From NCBI RefSeq assembly GCF_001866075.3, contig NZ_CP063356.1:4640164-4704163 (forward strand): DNA of 64,000 bases, in the 5' to 3' direction. The position numbers were made by a program, and so were the translations under genes. Within the stretch, counting starts at the first letter, position 1. Every line of letters starts with the position of its first letter. The DNA is from Anaerobacillus isosaccharinicus (GTDB lineage Bacteria > Bacillota > Bacilli > Bacillales > Anaerobacillaceae). Under the pieces are notes generated by a model that was not told where the DNA came from, ran no database searches, and was given only the letters and a program-made list of their open reading frames with translations. Below are positions 5,568 to 9,038 of the stretch, one piece after another.

Positions 5568-7187
5568 TTATTCTTTCCAAGCACCTGTTAAAACAACTGC
5601 ACCAGTTGCTCTCACAGTAATTCCTTTTAACTCACTTCTTTTTGCAATAATTGTATCTGGCACATATAAGAAGATCCATGGAGCATCATCAAAAATAATT
5701 TTTTGTGCTTCTGCATAAATACGCAGTGTTTCATCTTGGTCAGGAGATCTAAGTGCATCATTAAATAATTGATCTAATTGTTCATTAATATAATATCCAG
5801 CATTATTGTAGTTTGGTGGAATACGGTCTGAAGCAAAGTTCGGACGTAATCCCCAATCAGCTTCACCAGTTCCCGGTGACCATCTTCCAATAAATAAGTC
5901 TGTTCCGTCACCAGCATCTAACATGTCGAATAGAGTACCAGTTTCGTAAGCTTGAACGTCAACATTAATTCCGATTGCGCTTAATTAGATGGCTACATTT
6001 TCTGCAACCGTTAAAAACTCTGTAGAGTTTCTCGTCCAAAGAACAGCATCAAATCCTTCTCCAACTCCAGCTTCATCTAACAAGGTTTTTGCTTGATCTT
6101 GATCATATTCATAGATTGCTTGCGGGTCATAACCATAAACTGCAGGCGCAATCGCTGAGTTTAACACTTGACCATATCCATCTAAAACTAAAGCAATTAA
6201 CGCGTCTTTATTCACAGCGTGGTTCATCGCTTTTCGAACACGAACATCTTGATACTTATCTAAACTAACATTAATCCCTACATAGAATGCATCTGTAGAA
6301 GATCCAGTAAAGACATCAATGTTAGCATCTGATTCAAACTCATCAGCGATTAAAGTTGGTAGTGGGAAAACAATATCTACTTCCCCTGTTTTAAGCATGT
6401 TGACACGTGTACTTGCTTCAACTACTGGCTTAAATGTAATGCTTTCAACTTTCGCCTTTCCTTCTTCATTCCAATAATTATCAAAAGGAACAACTTTTAC
6501 GTGGGCACTGTCTCTCCACTCTAAGAACTTGAAAGGACCCGTTCCAACCGGATTACGGTCAGCATTGTATTCAGGGTTTTCAATTTTTTTATTTACTTCA
6601 TCAATCGATTTAAAAGCAGCTGCACTATGAGCAAGGTAAGATGCCATTGCAGAGTTAGGCTCTTTAGAGCGAACTGTTACACTGTAATCATTATTTACAA
6701 TAACCTCATCAATAAAGGAGAAGAAACTTGCACGTGCCATACCATTGTCACGGTCTCTTACAAAATCCAAATTGACTTTAACTACTTCCGCATTAAAAGG
6801 TGTTCCATCGTGGAAAGTAACTCCTTCTCTAAGGTCAAACGTAATTTCTGTTGCAGAGTCATTGAAGCTGTAATCTGTTGCTAACATTTTTACTAAATTC
6901 ATGCTTTCATCAAATGCTAGTAACCCTTCTAACATAACACTTTGAACTGTCGCAGAATTTGTGTCCGTTGCATTGTGAGGATCTAGTGAAGTAGGTTCAG
7001 CCTCAATAGCTACAACGAGCGGTTTTAATGTAGGTTCTTCTTTCTCAGGTTCTTTCTTTTCTGTCACGGGGTCTTGCTTTTCCGTTGGTTCTTCAGTCGT
7101 TGCTGGCTTATCACTATTACATGCAGTAACAACGATCATCGAAAAAGCAACAATAAAGACTAGACTAAGTAAACGCATAATTTTCAA
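5568..7187 (-). pseudogene. oppA: Oligopeptide-binding lipoprotein OppA, interrupted by an in-frame TAA
   Basis: This is the solute-binding protein of the opp system (SBP family 5). A TTG start at 7187 with GGGGAG 6 nt upstream gives a lipoprotein signal ending VVTAC, followed by a Glu/Pro/Lys-rich linker and the family body (LKPLVVAIEAEPTSLDPH; GTGPFKF). After codon 400 (TEFLTVAENVAI) there is a TAA at 5987-5985, yet the same frame continues with LSAIGINVDVQAYETG to a normal end at 5568. Read through, it gives 539 codons, the usual size. The stop probably replaces a Gln codon (CAA to TAA, inferred). The gene is either recently inactivated, read through, or affected by a sequence error. The truncated product would lack part of the ligand-closing lobe. 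Confidence 0.85.
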
Positions 7188-8622: not shown

Positions 8623-8774
8623 TCTATCTCCTCCCCACCATCTTATTCTTAGTAGAAAAAGATTAAACGTTTTCGAACCAATTAACTTCAAAGTAATTTT
8701 ACCTCTAAAAACAATGATTTACCATATATTTCTATCAATATTAATTTACAAAAGTTTTAAATGAGGTGATACGA

Positions 8775-9038
8775 ATGAAAGTTACAGCAAATGCGGCAAA
8801 ATTCTTACGGGGAATACTTAATAAAAGGCATAGCAGTGGATTTCGAATTGGTTATAATCCAAACAGCAACTGAGGTACATCAAAATTCAAACTCACTCTG
8901 GACGAGTGTAATAATGAGGATACTGTTGTAATAATTGAGGACATCCATTTCTTTTTTAATGAAGAGGTGATTACTAAATATCATCACCTCCACATTACAT
9001 TCGAAAATGGGCGGCTATCTTTAATAGATAAGACTTAA
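8775..9038 (+). pseudogene. HesB/IscA-like (Fe-S biosynthesis fold) gene with an in-frame TGA: selenoprotein candidate or pseudogene
   Basis: From an ATG at 8775 behind AGGTGA, the frame reads MKVTANAAKFLRGIL, then GFRIGYNPNSN, a TGA at 8871-8873, and then GTSKFKLTLDE and on to a TAA at 9036-9038, 87 residues in all if the TGA is decoded. The pattern (RI.Y...C-G...L.LDE) is that of HesB/IscA-like A-type proteins, and the TGA stands where the first conserved cysteine is expected. HesB-like proteins are one of the families in which selenocysteine is known in other bacteria. A short hairpin lies downstream (see 8894-8908). The competing view is a nonsense mutation, since other genes here also have single stops. 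No Sec machinery is visible in this window. Confidence 0.55.
8894..8908 (+). promoter_or_regulatory. SECIS-like hairpin downstream of the TGA codon
   Basis: CACTC / GAGTG form a 5-bp stem around the loop TGGAC, with G as second loop base. The loop begins 25 nt after the TGA of the HesB-like gene, within the usual distance for bacterial SECIS elements. The stem is short and the same bases encode the conserved L-x-LDE region, so chance is a serious alternative. Confidence 0.35.

Follow-up and report, generated by a model that had tools for sequence, protein, structure and literature searches.

The window, by which we mean the whole 64,000-nt stretch of DNA analysed, comes from a genome of Anaerobacillus isosaccharinicus assembled as a single contig (5.23 Mb, completeness 100). 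On its forward strand, a reading frame of 87 codons extends from an ATG at position 8775 to a TAA at 9036–9038 and contains a single in-frame TGA (8871–8873), corresponding to residue 33. It is preceded by GAGGTGAT (8763–8770), judged by eye to be a good ribosome binding site; purine-rich stretches, also noted by eye, precede the orthologous genes as well. An initial annotation of this DNA had described at 8775–9038 a TGA-split gene of 87 codons with a good ribosome site, and both points are borne out. The TGA opens a UGxS motif (U33 G34 T35 S36; 8871–8882) and is followed by a hairpin at 8894–8908, the halves of which, CACTC (8894–8898) and GAGTG (8904–8908), enclose the loop TGGAC (8899–8903). 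This loop starts 25 nt past the TGA. An IscA/HesB fold is predicted for the product in an AF2 model, and 24 orthologues were found besides the window gene.

Three promoter-like sites were detected at the locus, versus 2.7 in shuffled sequences, and the single terminator-like site was discarded, as it is the SECIS hairpin read on the opposite strand. No operon partner emerged as a clue to function: when ORFs of at least 50 aa within 8 kb were compared at 13 loci, the flanks being of unequal length, no neighbour family was common to more than three of them, barring a chromosome position shared with genome G002. About 1.6 kb from the gene, on the minus strand, positions 5568–7187 hold a gene named by eye as encoding a peptide-type solute-binding protein, which is split by an in-frame TAA; in G002 the syntenic copy (L066) reads as one frame of 538 aa. 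This gene was rejected as a Sec candidate, its stop being TAA. The caution in the initial annotation that other genes here carry single stops thus applies to the one nearby split gene that was checked, but as that gene is broken by TAA and not by TGA, it offers no parallel to the gene under study.

According to the bSECIS model (PMC13188914), a bacterial SECIS has a loop of 3–9 nt, a stem of 4–16 bp and a G within the first two loop bases, and lies 16–37 nt from the UGA. The hairpin of the window has this geometry, with a loop of 5 nt, a stem of 5 bp, TG as the first two loop bases and a distance of 25 nt. Its energy is −6.3 kcal/mol when 48 nt are folded and −9.1 when 63 nt are folded, versus a limit of −7.5 (PMC13188914). 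The stem, the loop TGGAC, the 25-nt spacing and the G proposed beforehand are thus confirmed, but taken alone the hairpin is weak. Upon applying a hairpin rule (stem of at least five pairs, G-U allowed, plus loop and spacing) to every comparable TGA of the window, that is, those preceded by at least 25 and followed by at least 40 open codons, 10 of the 37 other TGAs also passed, this site being the 11th of 38. The 48-nt fold is no better than that of shuffled sequences (z −0.36), and the isolated 23-nt hairpin does somewhat better (z −1.86, with 9 of 200 shuffles as good). Rfam SECIS_1 had no match in the genome, but none either in 14 control genomes, so that this search is uninformative. By itself, the hairpin is no more than chance would provide; the evidence lies in its conservation in relatives.

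The complete selenocysteine machinery (selA, selB, selC and selD), the absence of which would have spoken against Sec, was found in the genome. The genes selA (553.9 bits, cut-off 267.9), selB (357.5 bits, cut-off 242.25) and selD (408.2 bits, cut-off 125) lie together in one stretch (L007), and selD carries an in-frame TGA of its own near its start. Two tRNA-Sec genes (G000:C1:3587722-3587814 and 3725088-3725180), one of them about 0.8 kb outside L007, score equally at 58.6 bits versus a cut-off of 47, and ARAGORN assigns the anticodon TCA to both. Taking into account that the tRNA-Sec cut-off is not strict, being exceeded in 5 of 14 control genomes, whereas that of selA is exceeded in 1 of 14, selA and selB are given more weight. 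An Rfam scan of L007 returned only a sub-threshold threonine leader. Directly after selB, L007:3050-4090 (+) encodes a glycosyltransferase, possibly a selenium-linked sugar enzyme, which scores below the cut-offs of both NF038229 (GPMC system; 257.5 of 400) and SenB (79.7 of 300).

Relatives of the gene were searched at increasing taxonomic distance. Within the genus, a close orthologue is present in 2 of the 6 other genomes searched; both carry the TGA, and these nearest kin are only 47–48% identical to the window gene. A single-sequence search of a contig collection yielded 54 pattern matches, none confirmed as a relative; with a three-row alignment as query, ten relatives were found there, all with TGA and labelled Bacillaceae. 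A profile search of 397 genomes of the order gave 16 carriers at E ≤ 1e-12, all with TGA. In 388 genomes of the class, nine sequences matched at E ≤ 1e-8. Two belong to carriers already in the set and four to new carriers, these with TGA; the other three (L122, L123 and L124), low-scoring, lacking Sec at this place and considered as candidate Cys-form orthologues, proved to be of the ordinary, canonical GCCGP type. Across 398 genomes of the phylum, nothing was retrieved beyond the source genome and a UGxP-type sequence, L116. Counting the five repeated loci once (L070–L074 repeat L056, L058, L063, L059 and L062), the set comprises 25 distinct orthologues: 13 from the genus and the named contigs, window included, 8 further ones from the order and 4 further ones from the class.

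When these orthologues were aligned at residue 33, all 25 had TGA; Cys and Trp were each found in 0 of 25, and the codon does not vary among other residues. In the order, selA exceeds its cut-off in 181 of 397 genomes, and all 16 carriers belong to these. Random placement would give this with a chance of 2.4e-6, a value calculated as though species were independent, which they are not; the count covers those 16 carriers only, the class carriers (G802, G815, G936 and G946) and the named-contig genomes being left out. In 210 of 210 pairs pN is lower than pS, also for the part after the TGA alone. As most pairs are saturated, these values show constraint and not its strength. Conservation downstream of the TGA roughly equals that upstream of it in the 15 closest pairs.

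These data bear on whether the TGA is a nonsense mutation in a pseudogene or a sequencing error. Broken genes do occur nearby, as the solute-binding protein gene shows, but the same TGA stands in 24 other orthologues from separately sequenced genomes, and purifying selection continues past it in all 210 pairs. The gene does not appear decayed, and we regard this explanation as practically refuted.

The hairpin is conserved along with the TGA. Twenty-one subfamily members retain the core ACTCTGGA(C/T/A)-G(A/G)G-T, and the loop TGGA is present both in these (21/21) and in the distinct segments from the canonical HesB group (27/27). The outermost of the five pairs is AU in 14 of the 21 members, GC in two, GU in two, CG in one and UA in one, with one failure; the fourth pair changes among AU, GC and UG between the subfamily and the canonical group. 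The residue following DE is Cys in the window, Tyr in G002 and Leu in G006, and the second base of its codon still pairs with the third base of codon 40. The stem is therefore kept with compensating changes. Synonymous choice points the same way. In 20 sequences (L084 being left out as a near-copy of L083), same-residue pairs always share codon 41 (190/190), codon 42 (190/190) and codon 44 (154/154, made up of 153 GAG pairs and one GGG pair), and they share codon 43 in 123/171. Elsewhere in residues 23–49 the background identity is 1280/2554, single sites ranging from 0.24 to 0.87. CTG accounts for only 3% of the Leu codons in the long ORFs of the window.

Covariation was evaluated with both HesB groups together and with the subfamily alone. 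For both groups the score is 0.386, versus 0.170 on average in shuffles and at best 0.154 when the structure is slid, part of this signal being a single difference between two paralogous groups; for the subfamily alone it is 0.166, versus 0.090 and 0.115. Other counts are not above the controls. With both groups, three pairs show two-sided changes, a count reached in 420 of 500 shuffles, and nine pair types occur (368 of 500); with the subfamily alone, one pair shows such changes (240 of 500), and sliding the structure by one column gives five doubly changed cells versus four in place. The four class members (L118–L121) were left out of the subfamily covariation test and of the codon count, as well as of the tree described below. 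Since neither the counts of two-sided changes nor the one-column slide beat the controls, we rely more on the codon evidence.

The covariance model R1 represents the HesB-type SECIS and its flanking codons, not bacterial SECIS elements in general. It was built from 38 segments (alignment A4), half of them from the subfamily (19 of 20 members from outside the window, L084 being omitted) and half from the canonical group (19 of 35 loci); copies from the source genome were excluded on purpose and the remainder was thinned. R1 ranks the window second genome-wide (43.1 bits, E 7.8e-10; 150 of 3543 candidates scored), after a canonical HesB-type gene and before a third match at E 0.015 that covers the stem only. 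This rank supports the element. The −7.5 energy limit, on the other side, is reached with the 63-nt segment but not with 48 nt, and R1 misses the Sec-bearing selD, finding no match in L007 at E ≤ 10. Altogether, the degree to which relatives conserve the TGA, the hairpin and the protein goes far beyond chance.

Two further explanations of the TGA have to be weighed at this point. Translation might normally end there, the hairpin having another RNA-level role and the downstream frame being read only at times. The hairpin is indeed conserved as RNA, and selenium supply would be expected to set how often the codon is read. However, in the closest pairs the downstream part shows about the same conservation as the upstream part, it completes the predicted IscA fold, and every one of the 16 order carriers has selA; we consider this explanation very improbable. 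Insertion of Cys or Trp at the UGA, through a near-cognate or suppressor tRNA, is harder still to credit, given that no Cys or Trp codon occupies residue 33 in the 25 orthologues and that the codon is followed by a conserved hairpin of the bacterial SECIS type in a genome with the full Sec machinery.

We conclude, with a probability of roughly 0.95, that the gene at 8775–9038 is a real selenoprotein gene, and from the sequence comparisons we infer that Sec is incorporated in the cell. The proposal of the initial annotation that the TGA is selenocysteine is thus supported by the machinery, by the TGA in 25 of 25 orthologues and by the stem with its compensating changes. The ordinary bacterial route would apply: a ribosome reaching the UGA at 8871–8873 would receive Sec-tRNA(Sec) in its A site from SelB bound to the hairpin at 8894–8908, and decoding would yield an 87-residue protein with Sec33 instead of a 32-residue fragment.

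An AF2 model calculated from 11 sequences (alignment A3, which contains 11 of the 13 rows of A2, two being left out) has a pLDDT of 92.4. Its best match in the PDB is E. coli IscA (1s98; E 8e-5, TM 0.80 of the query), followed by IscA kin. A profile alignment with IscA 1x0g places residue 33 on the first conserved Cys, as had been anticipated for A-type carriers, although the match is weak (E 0.99). The family profile PF01521 is matched by 5 of 13 members at E up to 1 (best 1e-8); for the window protein there was no match at E up to 1 and the gathering score was not reached. NF038090 is matched by all 13 members scanned at E up to 1 (best 4.9e-8), and the window protein remains below the curated cut-offs of both NF038090 (28.8 of 85) and TIGR01911 (26.2 of 66.35). 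A-type carriers hold their cluster by C-terminal cysteines, a pair of the form C-x-C. This pair is absent in 21 of 21 members and in L118–L121, whereas UGxS is present in all 25 sequences. Twelve of the 25 orthologues contain no Cys whatever (9 of 21 chains, and 3 of the 4 later ones by eye). Compared with IscA, SufA and ErpA (PF01521), the protein therefore shares the predicted fold and lacks the C-terminal Cys pair, Sec being its sole conserved chalcogen residue.

HesB-like selenoproteins form an established family. They were identified in Methanococcus by mutagenesis and 75Se labelling, their function not being clear (PMC11097638); 11 members were counted in 2006 (PMC1794560) and 86 organisms in 2016 (PMC5029168), and the family was listed as TIGR01911 in 2022 (PMC9312934). 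This agrees with the statement in the initial annotation that HesB-like proteins include natural selenoproteins elsewhere. A 2026 review distinguishes 119 selenoprotein families or subfamilies, split by Sec position or motif, with one entry named HesB-like, of motif UxGP (PMC13188914). The window protein resembles the HesB-like selenoproteins (TIGR01911, NF038090) in having Sec at the first-Cys place, a small single-domain gene and the SECIS loop TGGA. It differs in its motif, UGxS versus UxGP (UGxP in 35 of 35 canonical Bacillales loci), in lacking the C-terminal Cys pair and in forming a separate clade. In a tree of 71 rows, the subfamily stands on one side of a branch supported at 100/100 and 2.4 changes per column long; the tree rests on few columns, good support is limited to 17 of its 68 inner branches, and one row (L085) is long. 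The canonical group in this tree mixes Sec and Cys forms, in contrast to the subfamily, which has Sec in 25 of 25. A Ser three residues past Sec also occurs in the UxxS selenoproteins (arsenate reductase, rhodanese-like form 1 and Prx-like) of Table 1 of PMC13188914, which are other families by name. Comparing by name, and leaving aside the folds of hypothetical proteins, no entry of that table called HesB or IscA has UxxS or UGxS. Likewise, no description of a UGxS subfamily with an IscA fold was found among titles and abstract openings of the literature outside subscription journals and preprints. Because that review splits families by Sec position or motif, the UGxS clade would, by the same rule, be a distinct Sec-only subfamily, set apart from the review's HesB-like entry by its motif. 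The HesB/IscA-like assignment made initially is right as to the predicted IscA fold, but the gene belongs to this separate UGxS clade and not to the known HesB-like family (TIGR01911, UxGP).

The main rival to the functional reading proposed below is a function shared with the canonical HesB protein: the gene would simply encode one more HesB-like selenoprotein, divergent but doing the same job as the rest of that known family, probably Fe-S or metal handling as in its IscA relatives. The common fold, Sec position and SECIS loop argue for it, as does the match of all 13 scanned members to NF038090, and we hold it to be a realistic possibility, though one clearly below even. That the window protein falls under both curated cut-offs tells against it, a weak point, since four canonical relatives scanned do so too. 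Further against it are the UGxS motif in 25 of 25 sequences versus UGxP in 35 of 35 canonical loci, the missing C-terminal Cys pair, the long, fully supported branch and the fact that the genome also keeps a canonical UGGP HesB gene (L015), so that both kinds coexist.

Those four canonical UGGP selenoproteins (L015, L012, L016 and L045) score 50–62 of 85 and 49–57 of 66.35 with the NCBIfam models; L015 itself reaches 49.2 with TIGR01911 and 55 with NF038090. L016 (G004:C348), from the same genus, is a HesB-type Sec protein with a shortened C-terminus carrying a single Cys instead of the usual CC.

Since no second chalcogen residue is conserved, we favour a lone selenol: the protein may work, redox or ligand, through this single site together with an outside thiol, a predicted function that we advance tentatively, its chances being a little short of even. 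Bacillithiol is the thiol of these bacteria. Sec33, followed by the conserved Gly34 and Ser36 and usually with a basic residue nearby, could act as a redox nucleophile that an outside thiol, for example bacillithiol, resolves. Alternatively, Sec33 could be the one ligand that each subunit contributes to a metal or cluster also bound by an outside thiol. In a broader reading, which we rate at about even odds, the subfamily would be a Sec-obligate branch of the IscA fold, a single Sec standing in for the whole three-cysteine cluster site. Its members would be catalysts or metal ligands with one selenol, dependent on an outside thiol such as bacillithiol, and would exist in Bacillales alongside the canonical HesB selenoprotein without being recognised by current family models. 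That it would not work with Cys is suggested because no Cys form occurs among the 25 sequences.

A frequent way of discovering selenoprotein families, independent of SECIS, is to match Sec-containing proteins with homologues that have Cys (PMC9312934). A family with Sec in 25 of 25 sequences, no Cys form found and a chain often devoid of Cys would escape it, and a Sec-only family points to a job for which selenium looks indispensable. Many TGA-bearing HesB-type genes are present in the order. Irrespective of TGA, 384 of 397 genomes gave a TIGR01911-type match at E ≤ 0.001, and because none of the 397 passes the TIGR01911 cut-off, automatic annotation may call such TGA-bearing genes broken or miss them. 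The 25 homologues, with their near-invariant loop and varying outer stem, also constitute a natural SECIS series for the SelB of Bacillales. Among the subfamily members, L121 has a SECIS stem that loses the fourth pair, and hence provides a natural test of the minimum stem length.
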